A stretch of DNA of 64,000 bases, from the NCBI RefSeq assembly GCF_029961155.1, contig NZ_JASBRH010000001.1, positions 124,001-188,000 on the forward strand. Reading direction: 5' to 3'. Source of the DNA: Pontibacterium granulatum (GTDB lineage Bacteria > Pseudomonadota > Gammaproteobacteria > Pseudomonadales > Balneatricaceae). Under the pieces are notes generated by a model. That model made no database searches. It was not told where the DNA came from and saw nothing but the letters and a program-made list of their open reading frames with translations. This document shows, in pieces, positions 22,916-32,533 of this stretch (within the stretch, counting starts at the first letter, position 1; each line of letters begins with the position of its first letter). Both the position numbers and the translations under genes were made by a program.

Positions 22916-24724
22916 TTAGTGAGCGTGAGCAGTACCTGCGCCGCGAGGGATACGCAGATCTTCTACGATACTCTGCATCTCTTCGGATGGCGGAGGAGTC
23001 ACTTGAGCAACGACTACCGCTACGATGAAGTGCAGGATCATACCAACAGTACCGAAACCACCTGGGGAGATACCCATGAAGTAGTCTGCGGAGCTGCCGC
23101 CACCGAATACGAAGTACCACATGTAGCCAACAGTAGAGATCAGACCTACCAGCATACCTGCGATCGCACCCTGAGTGTTCATGCGCTTGTAGAAGATACC
23201 CAGCATCAGAGTCGGGAATACGGACGCACATGCGATACCGAATGCCAACGCAACCACCTGAGCTACGAAGCCTGGAGGGTTGATACCGAAGTAACCAGCG
23301 ATACAGATCGCTACGATTGCCGCCAGACGTGCGTACATCAACTCCTGCTTATCAGAAATATTCGGGTTGATTGTCTTCTTCATCAAGTCATGCGAGATCG
23401 CTGTGGAGATTACCAGCAGCAGACCCGCCGCAGTAGACAATGCTGCTGCAACCGCACCTGCAGCCACCAGAGCGATTACCCATGCAGGCAGATTCGCGAT
23501 CTCTGGGTTAGCCAGTACCATGATGTCACGGTCAACATATACTTCGTTGGCGAATGGCTGTTTGCTTGCGTCGAAAGAAGCATCAGTCTTAGCGTTGGAG
23601 GTCATACGCTGACCCTCTTCGCCACGCTCTTCGATGAACGCCGGCTTGCCTTTCGCACCATCAAACGCAGCACCTGCAGCGTACTGTACTTTGCCGTCGC
23701 CATTGCGATCGTTCCACGCCAGCAGACCCGCATTTTCCCAGTTCTTGAACCAACCCGGCATCTCAGCGTAAGCAGTACCGGCGTTATCCGGACCGTTTAC
23801 TTCCTGGATCAGGTTTACACGACCGAAACCAGCAACACCAGGAACTGCAGTGTACAGCAGCGCGATGAAGATCAGCGCCCAACCACCGGTAGTACGCGCA
23901 TCTTTTACACGAGGTACTGTGAAGAAACGTACAATTACGTGTGGCAGACCTGCGGTACCGCACATCAGTGCAACGGTCAAGAAGAAGATATCCACGGTGG
24001 ATTTCTTACCTGCGGTGTACTGAGAGAAGCCCAGATCAATCGACAGCTGGTCAAGCGTCGCCAGTACAGACTGACCGCTTTCCAGTGTTGCACCCAGACC
24101 CAGCTGAGGCAGGAAGTGACCGGTAATCTGTGCAGACAGGAAGAATGCTGGAACGGTAAACGCCAGGATCAGTACACAGTACTGTGCAACCTGAGTGTAG
24201 GTAATACCTTTCATACCACCCAGCACAGCGTAGAAGAATACAATCGCCATACCTACGACTACACCGGTGTTGATGTCAACGTGCAGGTATCGGGAGAATA
24301 CGATACCAACACCACGCATCTGACCAGCTACGTAAGTGAAGGAGATTACGATCGTACAAACGACTGCGATGGTACGCGCAAGGTTTGAACCGTAACGGTC
24401 GCCCACGAAATCAGGCACGGTGAACTTACCGAATTTACGCAGGTAAGGAGCCAACAGCAGCGCCAGCAGTACGTATCCACCGGTCCAGCCCATCAGGTAA
24501 GCGGAACCATCACGGCCGATGAAAGAGATCAGACCCGCCAGGGAGATAAAGGATGCTGCAGACATCCAGTCTGCTGCGGTCGCCATACCGTTCGCAATGG
24601 GAGGTACACCACCGCCTGCAACGTAGAATTCTTTGGTAGATCCTGCGCGCGCCCAGATCGCAATACCGATATAAAGCGCGAATGATCCACCAATGAAGAG
24701 GTAAGTAAGTAAATCGAGACTCAT
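22916..24724 (-). CDS. Sodium:solute symporter, acetate permease (ActP)-like
   Basis: SSS-family sodium-coupled transporter. 602 residues with about 13 hydrophobic segments. GMATAADWMSAASFISLAGL in the first third and ALSTAAGLLLVISTAISHDL further on are hallmark ActP/SSS motifs. It has an extra hydrophilic loop of about 80 residues (around residues 330-410). The small DUF4212 gene just upstream marks it as the VC_2705-type subfamily, distinct from the classical DUF485-ActP pair. Acetate or another short carboxylate is the likely substrate, inferred from the nearby acs and CrbS/R-like genes. Confidence 0.9.
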   Translation of the reverse strand: MSLDLLTYLFIGGSFALYIGIAIWARAGSTKEFYVAGGGVPPIANGMATAADWMSAASFISLAGLISFIGRDGSAYLMGWTGGYVLLALLLAPYLRKFGKFTVPDFVGDRYGSNLARTIAVVCTIVISFTYVAGQMRGVGIVFSRYLHVDINTGVVVGMAIVFFYAVLGGMKGITYTQVAQYCVLILAFTVPAFFLSAQITGHFLPQLGLGATLESGQSVLATLDQLSIDLGFSQYTAGKKSTVDIFFLTVALMCGTAGLPHVIVRFFTVPRVKDARTTGGWALIFIALLYTAVPGVAGFGRVNLIQEVNGPDNAGTAYAEMPGWFKNWENAGLLAWNDRNGDGKVQYAAGAAFDGAKGKPAFIEERGEEGQRMTSNAKTDASFDASKQPFANEVYVDRDIMVLANPEIANLPAWVIALVAAGAVAAALSTAAGLLLVISTAISHDLMKKTINPNISDKQELMYARLAAIVAICIAGYFGINPPGFVAQVVALAFGIACASVFPTLMLGIFYKRMNTQGAIAGMLVGLISTVGYMWYFVFGGGSSADYFMGISPGGFGTVGMILHFIVAVVVAQVTPPPSEEMQSIVEDLRIPRGAGTAHAH

Positions 24725-24760
24725 AACAATGCCGTCCTTAATAAATTATTTTTATTTTTG

Positions 24761-25021
24761 TTATTCGTGAACGTCATATTTTTCGTCGAGCTTGTTCATG
24801 GACGAAACGTACATCCAGATCAAGATAACGAAGACGAAGATAGAACCCTGCTGACCAAACCAGAAACCCAGTGGGAATCCGAAGAACTGGATAGCATCCA
24901 ACTGATCAGCAAAAAGGATACCGCAGCCGTAGGAGACTACGAACCAAACGGAAAGATAGGAGACGATTATGCGCAAGTTTTCTTTCCAATACGCTTGCGC
25001 CTGTTCAGGGCTGATAGACAT
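24761..25021 (-). CDS. DUF4212 membrane protein, symporter small subunit
   Basis: 86-residue membrane protein with two hydrophobic segments (IVSYLSVWFVVSYGCGILFA and a second around SIFVFVILIWMYVSSMNKLD). It matches the DUF4212 pattern, including the aromatic-Gly-Phe core FGFPLGFWFGQQGS. It precedes the symporter by 36 bases and is likely its accessory subunit, analogous in layout to DUF485/ActP. First gene of the unit; an operator-like sequence lies about 85 bases upstream. Confidence 0.9.
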   Translation of the reverse strand: MSISPEQAQAYWKENLRIIVSYLSVWFVVSYGCGILFADQLDAIQFFGFPLGFWFGQQGSIFVFVILIWMYVSSMNKLDEKYDVHE

Positions 25022-25104
25022 TGCACCATCCTTATTTTTTTTATGAATTAGGTGGAACTAAAGACAGGATAGAGACTAGCAGAGCGTTGCCCAGTTCAAA
25101 GCCC

Positions 25105-25115
25105 GACTTTGGTCT
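25105..25115. promoter_or_regulatory. Degenerate copy of the acs operator-like motif
   Basis: GACTTTGGTCT differs in one base from the core of the paired AGACATTGGTCT motif upstream of acs. It lies about 85 bases before the DUF4212-symporter start, where a shared regulator such as the LuxR-type protein encoded nearby could act. Only one copy is recognisable and the placement relative to a promoter is uncertain. The rest of 25022-25263 shows no gene. Confidence 0.35.
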
Positions 25116-25263
25116 GATAGGAATGCTTGATTCCTAAAGCAATTTATCGGCCACCCCGCTAAATTCAAGGGCTACAGCCAAATCTAAAAACACCTTTGCG
25201 TTCAACGCTCTATACAAAGGTATAAGACGAGATTGGGCTTATTTAACAGAAGGAGTACACTAC

Positions 25264-25432
25264 GGAAGGTGCGAACAATTCCTGTAGGCACTTAGCATGC
25301 CCGTTGGGTACTGGCTTTCGGGAAGGTTCACAATCAAGGAAGCGCTTTGCAGGAATGTTGCAACCTTGCAAAAAGCGCTGATACCGAGTGTGAAGTTTCC
25401 CGATATCCCCACAGGGCTTATTCACACCTTCC
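25264..25432. repeat. Inverted-terminus palindromic repeat, copy A (169 bp)
   Basis: Bounded by imperfect 22-bp inverted termini (GGAAGGTGCGAACAA at the left, and the complement of GGAAGGTGTGAATAAG at the right). Inside are nested inverted repeats: CGGGAAggTTCACA (25319-25332) against TGTGAAgtTTCCCG (25389-25402), and AGCGCTTTGCA (25341-25351) against TGCAaaAAGCGCT (25367-25379). A second, longer copy lies at 30288-30551. It ends 35 bases before the hybrid kinase start and could place a hairpin in that leader. No transposase is encoded, so it resembles a MITE or REP-like element. Confidence 0.85.
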
Positions 25433-25467
25433 TATCTTTCCTGGACATTTCAAGGAGCAGGCACGCC

Positions 25468-28400
25468 ATGTTGTCAGGCTGGACGGTTATCATGATTTCG
25501 CTCGCTTACGTCGGGCTACTGTTCGCCATCGCCTATTATGGAGATAAAGCCCCTACTCCGAACAGAATTGGCAAGCAGGTTATCTACTCGCTGTCACTTG
25601 CCGTTTACTGCTCTTCCTGGACGTTTTATGGTGCGGTTGGACGTGCCTCCACCAGCGGCTGGGAGTTCCTCGCCACCTATCTGGGTCCAATCCTGGTATT
25701 TATGTTCGGCTGGCAGGTGATCGAGAAGATCGTCCTGATCAGCAAACAGCAAAACATCACCTCCATCTCGGACTTTATCTCGTCCCGCTACGGTAAGAGC
25801 CAGTTGCTCGCGGTCCTGGTAACCCTAATAGCGGTACTGGGCACGATTCCTTATATTGCGATGCAGCTTAAAGCGGTCGCCATCAGCTTCAGCGCAATCA
25901 CGGCAGGAAGCGAAACCTCACTCGGAAAAGGCAGTGATACCGCACTGTTTGTCGCTATGCTGATGGCCGTGTTCGCCATTCTGTTTGGTACCCGCCATAT
26001 CGATGCCACCGAACACCATGAAGGCCTTGTATTAGCGGTCGCCTTTGAATCGATCATCAAGCTGACCGCCTTTATCGCGGTGGGCGTCTTTGTGACCTAC
26101 GAGATCTTCGACGGACCGGCCCCGTTGATAACAAGCATTGGTGAGCAGCTGGATCAGAACCAGAATTTCCAGTCATTACTGCAGGACAGTTTCCTGGTCG
26201 AGACGATACTCGCCTGTGCTGCCGTCATCTGCCTGCCACGGCAGTTTCAGGTCACCATCGTAGAGACCACCGACATCGACAACCTCAAGCTGGCTCGCTG
26301 GCTGTTTCCGCTCTATATGGCCCTGTTGGCATTCTTCGTATTACCGATCTCCACCGCGGGCCTCTCCTACTTCGATGAATACAGCGCAGTGGACGCTGAT
26401 ACCTTTGTACTGATGCTGCCGTTAGCCGAGGGCCAGTTTAACCTGGCCACCTTTGCCTTTATCGGCGGGCTGTCCGCCGCAACCAGCATGGTTATCGTAG
26501 CCGCTATCGCCTTGGCAACCATGGTGTGCAACGACATCATTATGCCGATGCTGTTCCGCATCTCCTGGCTAAACCTTTCCCAGAGCAAAGACCTCGGCGC
26601 ACTGCTGCTCAAAGTCCGTCGCGTCACCATCATGTGCCTGATGCTGCTGGCTTACTTCTACTACCGTATTCTCGGCGACCAAGGCTCACTGGCATCCTTT
26701 GGTCTGCTGGCCTTTGTTGCAGCAATCCAGTTCCTGCCTGCGATTATTGGCGGCCTGTACTGGAAAACCGGCTCACGCAACGGTGTGTTCATCGGCATGA
26801 GCACAGGTTTCCTGCTGTGGCTGTACACCTTGGTGATCCCAACCCTGATGGAAGGTGGGCTGATCGGCGATCACTTCCTCGAAAACGGCTTACTGTCCGT
26901 GAGCTGGCTGAAACCAACTGCCCTGTTTGGCCTGGATCACCTTGATCCGTTGACCCACGGTGTGTTTTGGAGCCTCTCTGCCAACATCGCGCTCTACATT
27001 CTGGTGTCGCGTTACAGCTCCCGCCGCCTGGTAGATCGCATCCAGGCCAGCGCCTTTGTGGATATCTACAACAAGGCCCTGCCGGAAACGTCACGCCATT
27101 ACGAGCACGTGACCGTGGGTGACCTGCAGATGCTGACCGAGCGCTTCCTCGGTATCAGTCGTACCCAGCACTCTTTTACCGGCTTTGCCCTGCAACGGGG
27201 CGAAGAACCGCCCCTATCCGGCGACAAGGCCACCCCGGAACTGATCCAATTCACCGAGCGCCTGCTCGCCGGTGTGATTGGTGCATCCTCTGCCCGCATC
27301 GTCCTCGCCTCTATCCTGCAGGGGCGGGATATGCAGATTGGGGACGTGGTAACCATCGTAGACGAAGCTTCGCAGGCACTGCGCTTTAACCGCTCCCTGC
27401 TGCAATCCACCATCGAGAACATCAGCCTGGGCATAAGCGTAGTGGACCAGCAGATGCGCCTTGTCGCCTGGAACCGACCATACGTGGAGATGTTCGACTA
27501 CCCCGAAGGCCTGATCTGTGTCGGGCGCCCGATCGAGGAGGTATTCCGTCACAACGCAATCAAGGGCGAATACGGCCCCGGGGATATCGAGACCCAGGTA
27601 AAAAAACGCCTGGAAGTGCTGCGCTCCAGCCAGCCGCACAGCTACGAGCGTTTTCGCCCGGATGGCACCGTGCTCGATGTACGCGGCAACCCGATGCCAA
27701 ACGGGGGTTACGTTAACACCTACATGGACATCACCGACCATAAACAGATTGAAGAAGCGCTGCGTGAGAGTGAGCAGAATATCCGTATCTATACCGACAA
27801 CGTTCCGGTACTGATCGCCTATCTGGACCCCAACCGGCGTTACCTATTCGTCAACAAGGCGTACGCCCGCACCTTTGGTCTGGACCGGCACAATATCTCC
27901 GGCCAACCCTGCTACAAAGTATTGCCTGACGACGAATACGAGTTGCGCACCCCGTACATCAGGGAAGTCCTCAGTGGCAAGCGTCAGCGCTTTGAAACCA
28001 TGCTCCCCACCAAGGACGACAGCATCCGTTATGCCGAAGTGACCTACATACCGCATATCGGCGAATACGGTGACGTTCTGGGTTACTTCACCCTCTACCA
28101 GGACATTACTGAACGCCGCCTGGCCGAGCAGGCCCTGCAGGAAACCAACGAAACACTGGAGCAGCGCGTCAAAGAGCGAACCCACGCCCTGTCGGTGGTA
28201 AACAAAGAGTTGCGCAAGGAAAACACCATCCGCGCCCTGATGGAAGATGAGCTTCGCCAAGCAAAATCCGATGCGGACGCGGCCAACCTGGGCAAAACAC
28301 GCTTCCTTGCGGCAGCCAGTCATGACCTGCTGCAACCCCTGAACGCCGCCCGCCTGTTCTCATCAGCCCTGGCTCAACAGAGCCACAGCGACGAGACCCG

Positions 28401-29406
28401 TCAATTAGTTGACAACCTGGACGGCTCCCTTAAAGCTGCCGAAGAGCTGATTACCGCCATTCTGGATATCTCCAAACTGGATGCCGGCGCACTGGAACCG
28501 TCCATTACCGATTTCTCGGTGGATGACCTGTTCAGCAACCTGAGCACCGAGTTCACCGCGATGGCCTCGGACAAGTCGCTCAAATTCCGCTGCCACCCCT
28601 GCAATCTGGTGGTGCGCTCCGATCAGAAATTGCTGCGCCGCATACTGCAAAACTTCCTTTCGAACGCGATTCGGTACACTCAGCAGGGCGGTATCTTGCT
28701 GGGTTGCCGCAAGCGAGGCAACAAGTTGCGTTTTGAGGTCTGGGATACCGGTGTTGGAATCCCGCAAAACAAGTTGAAAGAGGTGTTTGAGGAGTTCCGC
28801 CGCATCGATAACCCCAAACACTCTCAGGTGCAAGGGCTGGGGCTGGGGCTGGCGATCACCGAACGTATCGCCCGCATGCTGGAGCATCGTCTGCAAGTCC
28901 GTTCGTGGCCAACCAAAGGCACAGTCTTCAGCGTTGAAGTACCACTAGGTGAAGCCAAACAGGCCGTGAAGCAGAAACCGGAGAACCGCGGCTGGATCCG
29001 CAGCAAAGGCCTGAACGGCGTCCGGGTACTGGTGATCGATAACGAACCAAAGATCCTGGAAGGCATGAGCGCCCTGCTCGGCGGTTGGTCTTGTGAGGTT
29101 GCAGTGGCGATCTCTGGTAACGAAGCCATCGCCCGGATCCAGGAGGCGCACTTCGAACCGGATATCATCCTGGCCGACTATCACCTCTCAGAGACCGATA
29201 CCGGTGTACGAGCACTTGCAGAGATTCGCACGCTGACCGAACGTGACATTCCCGCTGTTGTGATCACCGCCGACCGCACGGAAGAGGTAAAAGCCGAGAT
29301 CGAAGCCTGCGGCGCACAGCTGCTGACCAAGCCCATTAGACCGGCTGCACTGCGCGCTATTATCAACAAGATGATTGCCAACGCCCGCGCAATGGCCACC
29401 GAATAA
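25468..29406 (+). CDS. SSS-sensor hybrid histidine kinase (CrbS/MxtR-like)
   Basis: About 1312 residues. An N-terminal sodium:solute-symporter-like membrane domain (about residues 1-480, around 13 helices) is followed by PAS-type domains (about 640 and 770) and a short coiled coil. A HisKA domain with the phospho-acceptor in ASHDLLQPLNAAR (about 950), a HATPase domain (WDTGVGIPQ, GLGLGLAI) and a C-terminal receiver with ILADYHLSETDTG follow. The start is ATG 25468 with AAGGAG ten bases upstream. A longer frame to 25297 would read through the palindromic repeat and is rejected. The architecture matches CrbS/MxtR kinases that control acs; its likely partner is the convergent LuxR-type regulator. 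Confidence 0.9.
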   Translation: MLSGWTVIMISLAYVGLLFAIAYYGDKAPTPNRIGKQVIYSLSLAVYCSSWTFYGAVGRASTSGWEFLATYLGPILVFMFGWQVIEKIVLISKQQNITSISDFISSRYGKSQLLAVLVTLIAVLGTIPYIAMQLKAVAISFSAITAGSETSLGKGSDTALFVAMLMAVFAILFGTRHIDATEHHEGLVLAVAFESIIKLTAFIAVGVFVTYEIFDGPAPLITSIGEQLDQNQNFQSLLQDSFLVETILACAAVICLPRQFQVTIVETTDIDNLKLARWLFPLYMALLAFFVLPISTAGLSYFDEYSAVDADTFVLMLPLAEGQFNLATFAFIGGLSAATSMVIVAAIALATMVCNDIIMPMLFRISWLNLSQSKDLGALLLKVRRVTIMCLMLLAYFYYRILGDQGSLASFGLLAFVAAIQFLPAIIGGLYWKTGSRNGVFIGMSTGFLLWLYTLVIPTLMEGGLIGDHFLENGLLSVSWLKPTALFGLDHLDPLTHGVFWSLSANIALYILVSRYSSRRLVDRIQASAFVDIYNKALPETSRHYEHVTVGDLQMLTERFLGISRTQHSFTGFALQRGEEPPLSGDKATPELIQFTERLLAGVIGASSARIVLASILQGRDMQIGDVVTIVDEASQALRFNRSLLQSTIENISLGISVVDQQMRLVAWNRPYVEMFDYPEGLICVGRPIEEVFRHNAIKGEYGPGDIETQVKKRLEVLRSSQPHSYERFRPDGTVLDVRGNPMPNGGYVNTYMDITDHKQIEEALRESEQNIRIYTDNVPVLIAYLDPNRRYLFVNKAYARTFGLDRHNISGQPCYKVLPDDEYELRTPYIREVLSGKRQRFETMLPTKDDSIRYAEVTYIPHIGEYGDVLGYFTLYQDITERRLAEQALQETNETLEQRVKERTHALSVVNKELRKENTIRALMEDELRQAKSDADAANLGKTRFLAAASHDLLQPLNAARLFSSALAQQSHSDETRQLVDNLDGSLKAAEELITAILDISKLDAGALEPSITDFSVDDLFSNLSTEFTAMASDKSLKFRCHPCNLVVRSDQKLLRRILQNFLSNAIRYTQQGGILLGCRKRGNKLRFEVWDTGVGIPQNKLKEVFEEFRRIDNPKHSQVQGLGLGLAITERIARMLEHRLQVRSWPTKGTVFSVEVPLGEAKQAVKQKPENRGWIRSKGLNGVRVLVIDNEPKILEGMSALLGGWSCEVAVAISGNEAIARIQEAHFEPDIILADYHLSETDTGVRALAEIRTLTERDIPAVVITADRTEEVKAEIEACGAQLLTKPIRPAALRAIINKMIANARAMATE

Positions 29407-29424
29407 GTCGGAAATACAGACAAT

Positions 29425-29451
29425 AAAAAAGGTGCCACTGGCACCTTTTTT
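29425..29451. terminator. Bidirectional terminator between the kinase and regulator genes
   Basis: AAAAAA, GGTGCC, ACT, GGCACC and TTTTTT form a perfect hairpin flanked by A6 and T6. It can terminate both the plus-strand kinase transcript (stop at 29406) and the minus-strand regulator transcript (stop at 29498). Confidence 0.93.
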
Positions 29452-29497
29452 ATTAATCGATGACTCTCACCCCTTTCGAGTGAATTCAGCCTCAGAC

Positions 29498-30163
29498 TTA
29501 TTCTACGTCGGTCTTGGGTGGTTCAACGCCGAGACGCTGCGCTGCAATCACCGCCTGGGTACGGCTGTGAACGCCCAGCTTACGCAGGATTGCGGTCACA
29601 TGCGCTTTAATTGTCGCTTCGGAGACATTCAACTCGTAGGCAATCTGCTTGTTAAGCAGACCTTCGGTCAGCATGGTCAGAACACGGAACTGCTGAGGCG
29701 TTAAAGCAGCCAGCGCAGCGGCAAACTTCTGATCCTCTTCGCTCACGTCACCCAGATTGTCAGCAACCTCCTGCGGCAACCACTCTTCACCTTCGAGTAC
29801 AGCTTTAATTGCGTCGGAGATGGTTTCCAGCGGTGCGGACTTAGGAATAAAGCCTGACGCACCGTAATCGATCGCACGTTTCATCACATGCGGCTCTTCG
29901 CTACCGGACACCACAACAACCGGAATCCCCGGGTTTTGACCACGCAGGAATACCAAGCCGGAGAAACCATTGGTACCTGGCATGTGGATATCCAACAACA
30001 CCAGATCTGCATCAGGATTCTGATCTACTGCTTCCTGCACTGCCGCCAGAGAGTCGGCCTCTACAGTTGCAACACCCGGCACCGCCTGTGCCACTGCCTG
30101 CTTCAGCGCTGCACGAAACAGCGGATGATCGTCAGCAATAATAATTTTTTGTGCGAGCTGCAT
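29498..30163 (-). CDS. LuxR/NarL-type response regulator (CrbR/ErdR-like)
   Basis: 221 residues. The receiver domain has an acidic pocket (IIADDHP) and phospho-acceptor D58 in LVLLDIHMPGTNG. The C-terminal LuxR-type helix-turn-helix is LTPQQFRVLTMLTEGLLNKQ and NVSEATIKAHVTAILRKLGV. It converges with the SSS hybrid kinase and lies next to acs. In Vibrio and Pseudomonas, CrbR/ErdR activates acs and acetate transport genes, so that role is likely. The paired AGACATTGGTCT boxes upstream of acs are candidate sites. Confidence 0.88.
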   Translation of the reverse strand: MQLAQKIIIADDHPLFRAALKQAVAQAVPGVATVEADSLAAVQEAVDQNPDADLVLLDIHMPGTNGFSGLVFLRGQNPGIPVVVVSGSEEPHVMKRAIDYGASGFIPKSAPLETISDAIKAVLEGEEWLPQEVADNLGDVSEEDQKFAAALAALTPQQFRVLTMLTEGLLNKQIAYELNVSEATIKAHVTAILRKLGVHSRTQAVIAAQRLGVEPPKTDVE

Positions 30164-30250
30164 GCGTTCACTACCCCCCTCTCACACCAGTTAAGGTGCA
30201 AGTTCCTGTACTGCAACCTAATCCTGGCTCAATCATACCACCGATAATAC

Positions 30251-30282
30251 AAAAACTCCCACCAGGCAAAACCCGGCGGGAG
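30251..30282 (-). terminator. Intrinsic terminator downstream of acs and repeat copy B
   Basis: On the minus strand CTCCCGCCGGG pairs with CCTGGTGGGAG (11 bp plus a wobble closing pair, short T-rich loop), followed by TTTTTG. It lies beyond repeat copy B, so acs transcripts would carry the repeat in their 3' untranslated region before terminating. Confidence 0.82.
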
Positions 30283-30287
30283 CATTA

Positions 30288-30551
30288 GGAAGGTGCGAAC
30301 AAGTCCTGTTAGCACTCTGGCTTTCGGGAAGGTTCACAATCAAGGAAGCACTTTGCAGTAAGGTTGTAACCTTGCAAAAAGTGCTGACACCGAGTGTGGA
30401 TCTTCCCGAAAGCCCCGCAGGGCAAGCCCTTAAGCCCGCATCTGCGGTGTTGCAGTTTTTGTTAAGGACTTGGCCATTAACGGCAAACTGCACCTTGCAT
30501 CTACAGACTTAAGGGCTTGCAGAGCACAAACAGGACTTATTCGTACCTTCC
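30288..30551. repeat. Inverted-terminus palindromic repeat, copy B (264 bp)
   Basis: Same family as the element at 25264-25432: left end GGAAGGTGCGAACAAGTCC, right end the complement of GGAAGGTACGAATAAGTCC. The outer palindrome is CTTTCGGGAAG (30321-30331) against CTTCCCGAAAG (30402-30412); the inner stem is AGCACTTTGCA (30347-30357) against TGCAaaAAGTGCT (30373-30385). Relative to copy A, one stem pair has changed from G-C to A-T on both sides. It has an extra 95-110 bp module with a perfect 12-bp inverted repeat CAAGCCCTTAAG / CTTAAGGGCTTG. It lies in the acs-regulator intergenic gap, which otherwise holds only the acs terminator. Confidence 0.85.
30423..30519. repeat. Extra palindromic arm inside repeat copy B
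   Basis: A perfect 12-bp inverted repeat, CAAGCCCTTAAG (30423-30434) and CTTAAGGGCTTG (30508-30519), encloses a further nested pair (TGCAGTTT / AAACTGCA) and GTTAA/TTAAC. This module is absent from copy A, which suggests the family is modular or that copy A is a deletion derivative. Confidence 0.7.
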
Positions 30552-30580
30552 TTTATCAGGCTAGCAGAACTTGCCGGATA

Positions 30581-32533
30581 TTACTTACGGTTCATGCGGT
30601 TTTCGATCAGATCGTCAACCACGGATGGATCTGCCAGAGTGGAGGTATCACCCAGAGAACCAAAGTCATCCTCAGCGATCTTGCGCAGGATTCGGCGCAT
30701 GATCTTACCGGACCGGGTCTTCGGCATGCCTGGCGCAAACTGAATCAGGTCTGGCGATGCGATTGGACCGATCTCGCTGCGTACCCAAGTGCGCAGCTCT
30801 TTCAGCAGCTCATCGGACTGCTCGTAGCCAGCCTGCAGGGTCACGTACACATAGATACCCTGACCTTTCACATCGTGTGGATAACCAACTACTGCCGACT
30901 CAGCCACTGCTGGATGAGCAACCAGTGCAGATTCAATCTCCGCCGTACCCATGCGGTGACCGGATACGTTGATTACGTCGTCGACACGACCAGTGATCCA
31001 GTAGTATCCATCTTCGTCACGACGCGCGCCGTCACCGGTGGTGTACACACCTTTGTAAGTAGAGAAGTAAGTCTGGATAAAGCGCTCGTGGTCACCCCAG
31101 ATTGAACGGCTCTGACCCGGCCAGGAGTCTTTCAGGACCAGGTTACCGTCGGTCGCACCTTCCAGTTCGTTACCTTCCGCATCCAGCAGCGCTGGCTGTA
31201 CACCGAAAAACGGACGGGTTGCAGAACCTGGCTTGGCATCCGTTGCACCAGGCAAAGGCAGGATCATCATGCCGCCTGTTTCTGTCTGCCACCAGGTATC
31301 AACGATCGGGCAGCGCCCCTGGCCAACTACGCGGTGGTACCATTCCCATGCTTCCGGGTTGATCGGCTCACCGACAGAACCCAGGATACGCAGAGAGGAC
31401 AGATCAGAATCTCCCAGAACATCTTCGCCCTGCTGCATCAGCGCGCGGATTGCAGTTGGCGCAGTGTAGAACTGGTTAACTTTGTGTTTTTCAATTACGC
31501 GACCGAAGCGGCTGTTGTCCGGGTAGCTTGGTACACCTTCGAACATCAGGGAGGTCGCACCGTTTGCCAGCGGACCGTATACGATGTAGCTGTGGCCGGT
31601 TACCCAACCTACGTCCGCAGTACACCAGTAGATGTCACCGTCTTTATAGTCGAACGCGTATTCGTGGGTCATGGATGCATACACCATGTAACCACCGGTG
31701 GTGTGCTTCAGGCCTTTTGGCGCGCCAGTAGAACCGGAGGTGTACAGGATAAACATCGGTGCTTCTGCTTCCATCTCTTCAGGAGCACACTCAGCAGAAG
31801 CTTCAGCAACGATATCTTCGTACCAGACGTCAACGTCGCTGTTCCATTCAACTTCGTCTTCTACACGCTTAACAACAATTACGCTGTCTACACATGCTTT
31901 CGCAGCTTCGTGAGTCAGCGCCTTGTCTACGTTCGCTTTCAGCGGTACAGACTTACCTGCACGCAGCGAGTAGTTGGAGGTGACAACAACCTTAGACTTC
32001 GCGCCTTCGATACGCGCGGCCAGTGCTTCAGGAGAGAAACCACCAAATACGATAGAGTGAACTGCACCGATACGGGTACATGCCAGCATCGCCACAGCTG
32101 CTTCAGGGATCATCGGCATGTAAAGCGTAACCACATCACCCTTTTCAACGCCCTGTGCTTTCAACGCATTGGCAAACTTACATACGCGCTCGTACAGGTC
32201 TCGGTAAGTGATATTTTCAGATTCGCTTGGGTCATCACCTTCCCAGATGATTGCAACTTGGTCACCACGGGTTTCCAGATGACGGTCCAGACAGTTGTAG
32301 GACGCATTCAACGTACCGTCTTCGTACCAGCGAATATCAACGTTGTGCGGGTCAAAAGAGGTGTTTTTAACCTTGGTGTACGGTTTGAACCAATCCAGTC
32401 GCTTACCCGCTTCGCCCCAGAATGCATCCGGGTCGTTGATGGATTGCTCGTACATCGCCAAATATTTTTCGTTGTTGATGTGAGCTTCCGCAGCCAGTTC
32501 AGGAGAAACTGGATATACCTTTTCTTCACTCAT
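30581..32533 (-). CDS. acs: Acetyl-CoA synthetase
   Basis: Activates acetate to acetyl-CoA via acetyl-AMP, allowing growth on acetate and overflow scavenging. 650 residues, the family length. Motifs: the AMP-binding signature [29 protein letters not shown] and [19 protein letters not shown]. The regulatory, acetylatable lysine is in [18 protein letters not shown] 340-base upstream region carries paired operator-like boxes, and the CrbS/R-like system is encoded next door. Together with the symporter it forms an acetate uptake and activation module. Confidence 0.98.

Follow-up and report, generated by a model that had tools for sequence, protein, structure and literature searches.

Why should two copies of one palindromic repeat flank a pair of regulatory genes, and what kind of element are they? 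The question arises from a 64,000-nucleotide stretch of the Pontibacterium granulatum genome (contig NZ_JASBRH010000001.1, positions 124,001 to 188,000; the window), in which copies A and B of the repeat enclose the genes of a hybrid sensor kinase and a LuxR-type response regulator, which we take to be CrbS and CrbR (Table 1). An earlier sequence-only reading had proposed a miniature inverted-repeat transposable element (MITE), a REP-like family or a structured RNA element, and sequence alignment shows that both copies are real and lie at the positions it had given. We propose that they are MITEs moved by IS5-type transposases, whose core, a cassette of two hairpins, acts through nascent RNA and allows the element to be tolerated within transcribed spacers. 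We give this reading a probability of roughly 55%.

Results

Copies A and B have 29 nucleotides (nt) of the left end in common at 90% identity and a core of 107 nt at 89%, in agreement with the shared terminal repeats and similar core of about 100 bp noticed earlier. The terminal repeat GGAAGGTGCGAACAA is exact at the left ends of both copies and carries two mismatches at both right ends; the terminal inverted repeat of copy B is 33 nt long with 85% complementarity. This 15-mer is not rare in the window, where six occurrences with up to three mismatches were found against a mean of 1.93 expected. Copy B possesses a second arm of about 100 nt, which copy A lacks, and copy A contains an extra insert of 18 nt (25293-25310), as does a copy on contig C73. 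Extra palindromic inserts within or beside an arm, possibly nested small palindromes, were seen at this window position and at loci L126, L171 and L099. As had been noted, no transposase is encoded in or beside the copies (264 and 169 bp) in the list of open reading frames (ORFs).

A search of the source genome with copy B gave eight matches of nearly full length (263-266 bp, 87-100% identity), one of them copy B itself, as well as partial ones; the diverged copy at C33:71382 brings the full-size members of this family to nine. Its 18-nt end, with up to three mismatches, has 64 matches in the whole genome, compared with 10 for the pattern written backwards. A second family, 263-264 bp long and bearing GGAACCTGCGAAYAAGTCC ends, comprises six full-size copies plus shorter members. 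Altogether, the genome holds about 30 dispersed copies (33 when listed), 15 of them full size (263-266 bp), with two terminal-repeat variants. The sequence-only reading would have been undermined by a lack of further copies and of terminal symmetry; the whole-genome search that it had proposed returned dispersed copies with IS5-type terminal repeats. At the lower end of the size range, tiny elements of 47-69 bp consist of little more than two terminal repeats (C2:124680-124748, C3:91139-91191, C3:39311-39362 and C74:47423-47469). Closely spaced pairs of ends resembling them were also seen in genomes G529 and G382.

The ends of the copies correspond to those of IS5-group elements (GGAANNTGCGAAYAAGTCC), and ends of the form GGAAGG/GGAACC-TGCGAAYAAGTCC are comparable with IS5 ends in the source genome (G000) and in a relative, G042. 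In the source genome the IS5-group element spans 1163 bp (C66:27488-28650; locus L046, 1989-3151), with ends GGAACATGCGAATAAGTCC and flanks CTAG/CTAA. Its transposase matches DDE_Tnp_1 at 8.4e-34, the gene is interrupted by one in-frame TAG, and it is the only transposase copy of that kind found in this genome at E <=1e-20; the element gave no match to the hairpin model described below. The IS5 of G042 is flanked by CTAA and CTAG, and its left end, GGAAGGTGTGAAGAAGTCC, closely resembles those of copies A and B. An IS5 relative with matching ends is present in both genomes, in one of them with a stop in its gene; the earlier reading had named an autonomous element with such ends as support for a mobile family. 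At the same threshold, transposases of this kind occur in 21 of 57 relatives, the source genome included; G036 and G048, which carry elements with different ends, yielded none. No autonomous partner of TACTCTTTCAAGGTAATAA ends was found among the matches listed, these sites lying in four of five genomes with fragmented assemblies.

Congeners allow the insertion sites to be read in their empty state. The site of copy A is free of the element in three of four congeners (G002, G003 and G004), which read AAACTAG there, and this sequence contains the IS5 target YTAR (as CTAG), the target being given as such in PMC10359306. The fourth congener, G001, is diverged at the site and likewise has no element. 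The site of copy B is empty in all three congeners in which it is readable (G001, G003 and G004), the G002 locus stopping before it. Because of these empty sites, both insertions look recent on the source lineage. Many dispersed copies, IS5-type ends, an IS5 copy in the genome and empty congener sites together argue that copies A and B are MITEs, small transposons without genes of their own, as one of the earlier guesses had it; the mobility of the family is well supported.

What sets these elements apart is their interior. A full element reads, in order, terminal inverted repeat, arm A, a mini-hairpin (GCCC-NNNN-GGGC), arm B and terminal inverted repeat, its two arms being the same 69-nt hairpin motif in opposite orientations. 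Arm B aligns to the reverse complement of arm A with a local score of 36, against a null mean of 20.3 and with 5 of 1000 shuffles scoring as high, whereas in the same sense the score is 22, equalled by 215 of 1000 shuffles, and there is no resemblance. In copy B, the first letters of the mini-hairpin are able to pair within arm A as well. Among 11 full copies (nine from the source genome, two from relatives), 101 pairs are predicted, 33 of which show double changes that keep the pair. Taken as minus-strand RNA, copy B lies 12.6 standard deviations below its shuffles in folding (z -12.6), and copy A as a whole reaches z -5.8. On its functional strand the motif has the consensus GCAAGGCGC[stem]GCAGnnAATGGCCnTAGYCCTTnnCAAG[stem]GCAACGC. 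Across lineages its stems vary widely while loops and spacing are kept, and mismatches and a bulge inside the arms are conserved. We quantified this with 132 arm sequences (131 after one with an N was dropped), which gave 54 representatives, 15 loci with broken flanks having been excluded before clustering. In these, 91.9% of cells pair compared with 71.5% when shuffled. The covariation score is 0.616, whereas shuffling gives 0.211 +/- 0.014 and sliding no more than 0.149; one measure, the tally of double-change pairs (12), does not rise above shuffles (113 of 500). Covariation and folding thus support the guess of a structured element, be it RNA or DNA.

The motif extends far beyond the source genome. 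The loop pattern of arm B, AAGGRCKANGGCCATTRNCTGC, occurs in at least 114 stretches of the genome collection, and the flanks of the matches share one hairpin motif; all 80 listed stretches bear proteobacterial names, with a majority gammaproteobacterial. Later work on these loci used 100 of them, and another set comprised 72 loci. A covariance model, R1, was built from the motif and applied with a range cut-off of E <=1e-4. Its matches cover 51 of 293 genomes sampled from the order, 94 of 369 from the class and 53 of 398 from the phylum, the source genome included, where the class is Gammaproteobacteria, judging from the named relatives. With limited scoring, copy numbers per genome are lower bounds; seven chosen genomes that were scored more fully have 19 to 66 matches each at E <=0.001. 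Outside the class, twenty genomes of family f246 carry the motif. Three element queries against plasmids, and one each against phages and E. coli genomes, gave no match, and viral contigs gave no exact match to the loop pattern, all in collections that may be poor in host taxa.

Within elements read with the model, the motif forms a converging inverted pair, with a spacing of 37-38 nt in 57 of 66 cases. Ends could be assigned in 124 elements, of which 91 are 260-279 bp long. These ends differ around the same core (GGAAGGTGCGAA, GGAACCTGCGAA, GGCACCTCTGATTAA, GGAACCTCTGATTAA, TGGTCCTTCAACATG, TACTCTTTCAAGGTAA, TGTCGTGAGTCATAAATT, AAAAATCAGTTGACC and others; the assigned class labels are too rough to serve as counts) and often adjoin CTAG. 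Since the same core stands behind different ends, it is conserved while the ends vary and appears to be a persisting module. At loci L281, L283, L238 and L240 of other genomes only one arm scores well and the other looks strongly diverged, as in the window family; the arms may be specialised.

Mismatches indicate which strand folds: a strand that is under selection as RNA or DNA should carry G-T rather than A-C mismatches. On one strand (X), the stem-2 cells of a set free of any stem model contain 70 A-C and 15 G-T among 786, and those of the 54 representatives 24 A-C and 6 G-T (p 0.0014). This A-C excess on X points to the reverse strand, Y, as the folded one. Counts from covariance-model alignments (426 G-T, 30 A-C) lean to the model, and we do not treat them as proof. 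For the two families of the source genome we considered only pairs predicted on both strands, as prediction on one strand biases the test. On the plus strand, arm A has 8 G-T and 2 A-C and arm B 5 G-T and 17 A-C (Fisher p 0.005), and the terminal repeats have 8 G-T and 5 A-C. Neither these wobble counts nor those above are fully corrected for relatedness. Given this opposite wobble bias, each arm is seemingly folded on the strand where it comes first. This suggests that the folded strand is that of the 5' arm, read from either side, as expected of an orientation-independent hairpin in nascent RNA.

At the locus itself, 35 nt separate the end of copy A from the probable crbS start codon (25468). 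Copy B follows the stop codon of acs (30581) and precedes a hairpin that resembles a terminator (30283-30255, minus strand), so that copy B is probably part of the acs transcript; placement in the kinase leader and 3' of acs had been recognised correctly. The genes between the copies are likewise those described, a hybrid kinase and a LuxR-type regulator, except that the SSF domain ascribed to the kinase is not given by Pfam at E <=0.001. From 22916 to 32533 an SSF symporter gene, the hybrid kinase, the LuxR-type regulator and acs lie side by side, and congener stretches of that order agree; this is presumably the usual layout of the acetate switch.

Table 1. Coordinates of the two repeat copies, their parts and the neighbouring genes in the window.
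Feature	Position	Strand	Remarks
Copy A	25264..25432	none	169-bp short member, one arm, 18-nt extra insert, in crbS leader
Copy A left terminal repeat GGAAGGTGCGAACAA	25264..25278	+	exact
Copy A conserved core (left-arm hairpin and part of centre)	25311..25417	+	89% to 30317-30423
Copy A right terminal repeat	25418..25432	-	2 mismatches
Sensor hybrid kinase	25468..29406	+	Pfam PAS, HisKA, HATPase_c, Response_reg
LuxR-type response regulator	29498..30163	-	Pfam Response_reg and GerE
Intrinsic-terminator-like hairpin, downstream of acs and copy B	30255..30283	-	
Copy B	30288..30551	none	264-bp full-length member, between acs stop codon and acs terminator
Copy B left terminal inverted repeat	30287..30319	+	
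Copy B left arm, diverged copy of hairpin motif	30319..30414	+	repeat alignment; unmatched by model R1
Copy B central mini-hairpin GCCC-CGCA-GGGC, between arms	30412..30423	none	read in sequence; two pairs predicted
Copy B right arm	30422..30520	-	repeat alignment and predicted pairs
Conserved hairpin motif in copy B	30438..30505	-	model R1, 66.8 bits, E 7.5e-16; sense strand of acs transcript
Copy B right terminal inverted repeat	30520..30552	-	
Acetyl-CoA synthetase acs	30581..32533	-	ORF and Pfam

Insertion sites were surveyed for 136 elements with enough flank, from other genomes and the source genome. Four lie inside long ORFs, 105 could be classed by their neighbours, 18 are too far from a neighbour and 9 have none. 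Flanking genes are tandem in 59 cases, divergent in 25 and convergent in 21, against 193, 70 and 61 in the background; the elements thus show no preference for gene orientation and do not avoid same-direction gaps (59/105 versus 193/324). Repeats of P. fluorescens, as portrayed in PMC2718517, favour convergent gene ends, which is interpreted there as avoidance of termination. Since the present elements follow the background, unlike those repeats, a non-polar element is weakly favoured.

Discussion

With this in mind, we propose the following mechanism. IS5-group transposases would recognise the terminal repeats and move the copies in trans, with insertion at YTAR/CTAG. The passenger would be a core cassette, two inverted structured hairpins around a small central one, that is carried by several types of terminal repeat. 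Because the two motifs are inverted, transcription from either side would begin with the functional hairpin, which is then the 5' arm. In nascent RNA this hairpin may meet a conserved host component of transcription or RNA processing, and the element would thereby be tolerated in transcribed spacers, for instance the crbS leader or the stretch between acs and its terminator. Tolerable insertion of this kind is our guess at the function of the core. We hold only tentatively the wider view that the motif is a mobile, orientation-independent nascent-RNA hairpin module of Gammaproteobacteria and some neighbours which acts on a host machine, for instance as an antitermination or RNA-protecting signal.

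Several observations weigh against this proposal. The outer arm stem shows little wobble bias (57 G-T, 39 A-C, p 0.08), and on this account that part is perhaps kept by DNA processes. On the side of mobility, no autonomous element was seen for TACTCTTTCAAGG-type ends among the matches listed, 56 of 180 elements examined gave no terminal repeat under our score (124 did), and target duplications are clear in few copies, TTAG/TTAG being found at C3:91139 and C5:69849 and duplications being partial or absent in others. Model R1 misses the left arm of the copy B family in the window and returns a single match, at E 0.14, for the second family of the source genome; both probably belong to the superfamily, a placement that rests on architecture, length and the position of shared letters, and for the left arm also on one alignment. 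Gene calls in the survey of insertion sites are crude.

How far could simpler explanations go? The elements might be ordinary fold-back MITEs without a functional core, their arms corrected by strand switching during replication and their conserved letters reflecting recent common spread. Transcripts of MITEs often form long stem-loops (as described in PMC10969869), and the outer arm stem fits this explanation: in a register selected to favour Watson-Crick pairing, 1837 of its 1970 pairs are of that type, and its strand bias is small. However, the conserved mismatches and bulge of the arms have escaped any such correction, and the strand-biased wobble of the inner stems, as well as stems that vary by lineage while loops and spacing stay, speak against it, so that we regard it as unlikely. 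Doubtful, too, is that the hairpin works as single-stranded DNA, for example at a replication fork, and, much as with REP hairpins or attC sites, serves to bind a protein of the host or a transposase. One motif stands at the 5' side of each strand, the motif travels with mobile elements of differing ends, and G-T pairs are tolerated in DNA too; yet the outer stem, which extrusion needs, is without clear bias, and matches are absent from plasmids and phages (element queries) and from viral contigs (loop pattern), in collections that may hold few hosts.

Finally, the location of copy A in the crbS leader and of copy B in the 3' region of acs might suggest a regulatory device of the acetate switch. 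This we consider very improbable, and we reject a functional bracketing of crbS and crbR, since congeners carry the genes of this region without the copies and simulated genomes with 9 to 30 random copies have two within 5.1 kb in 8 to 62% of cases.

MITEs are usually regarded as decayed leftovers whose interior is irrelevant. Here, the interior is strongly conserved, with pairing, loops and spacing holding while stems change, and, in about one in four of the sampled genomes of the class (94/369), the same interior is met again with differing terminal repeats. If functional, the core would be a widespread RNA or DNA signal that matches no Rfam family, and it would help to explain why small elements persist in transcribed spacers. 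In addition, the covariance model could serve to annotate many intergenic repeats.

At curated scores, Rfam 15 finds nothing in the window and only tRNAs in 20 motif loci. Six Rfam matches in the window (E <=5), all below the gathering score, were taken as chance: STnc40 and BASRCI153 at the terminator near 29384-29455, MIR5200 (both strands) and SAM-II over arm A, and RAGATH-21 over arm B. We found no description of the core in the open-licence literature consulted. PMC11109978 counts 250 mobile or repeat motif candidates, among which the present core may already figure; PMC8632094 is an earlier paper on structured mobile repeats of this kind. MRSC-65-2 and other candidates are, like our element, multicopy, covarying structured repeats of DNA or RNA, but MRSC-65-2, as described in PMC11109978, has one long stem and a UYCCGG repeat, whereas the present motif has two arms and no such hexamer in its consensus, and we rejected it as the same motif.

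Similar in part are the R200 and R26 repeats of P. fluorescens, likened here by their description in PMC2718517, which are intergenic and 320-352 bp long; Pseudomonas also provides a named match to our motif (locus L128). CIR elements of Caulobacter and relatives share two hairpin arms with a linker, an intergenic location and maintenance between species, but, on the account in PMC2229807, are about 110 bp long, carry a conserved GANTC and are partly MITE-like, whereas the present elements measure about 265 bp and have terminal repeats. GANTC, which marks the arm loops of CIR, is absent from our motif consensus. The inverted pairing of the hairpins also resembles REPINs. REP sequences are palindromic and occur in many copies as well, but are 20-40 bp long with a GTAG or CGTC end tag, as summarised in PMC3733652, whereas here 69-nt motifs lie inside IS-type ends. 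In our motif GTAG occurs only in the apical loop of some copies, and with its length of 69 nt and a consensus free of either end tag, a strict REP assignment, also among the earlier guesses, is not supported. The closest counterparts are IS5-derived MITEs, which share with the present elements the small size, IS5-type ends, a high copy number, the lack of a gene for a transposase, the presence of an IS5 relative and insertion sites that look YTAR-like, and from which these elements differ by a conserved, covarying double-hairpin core common to elements with differing ends.

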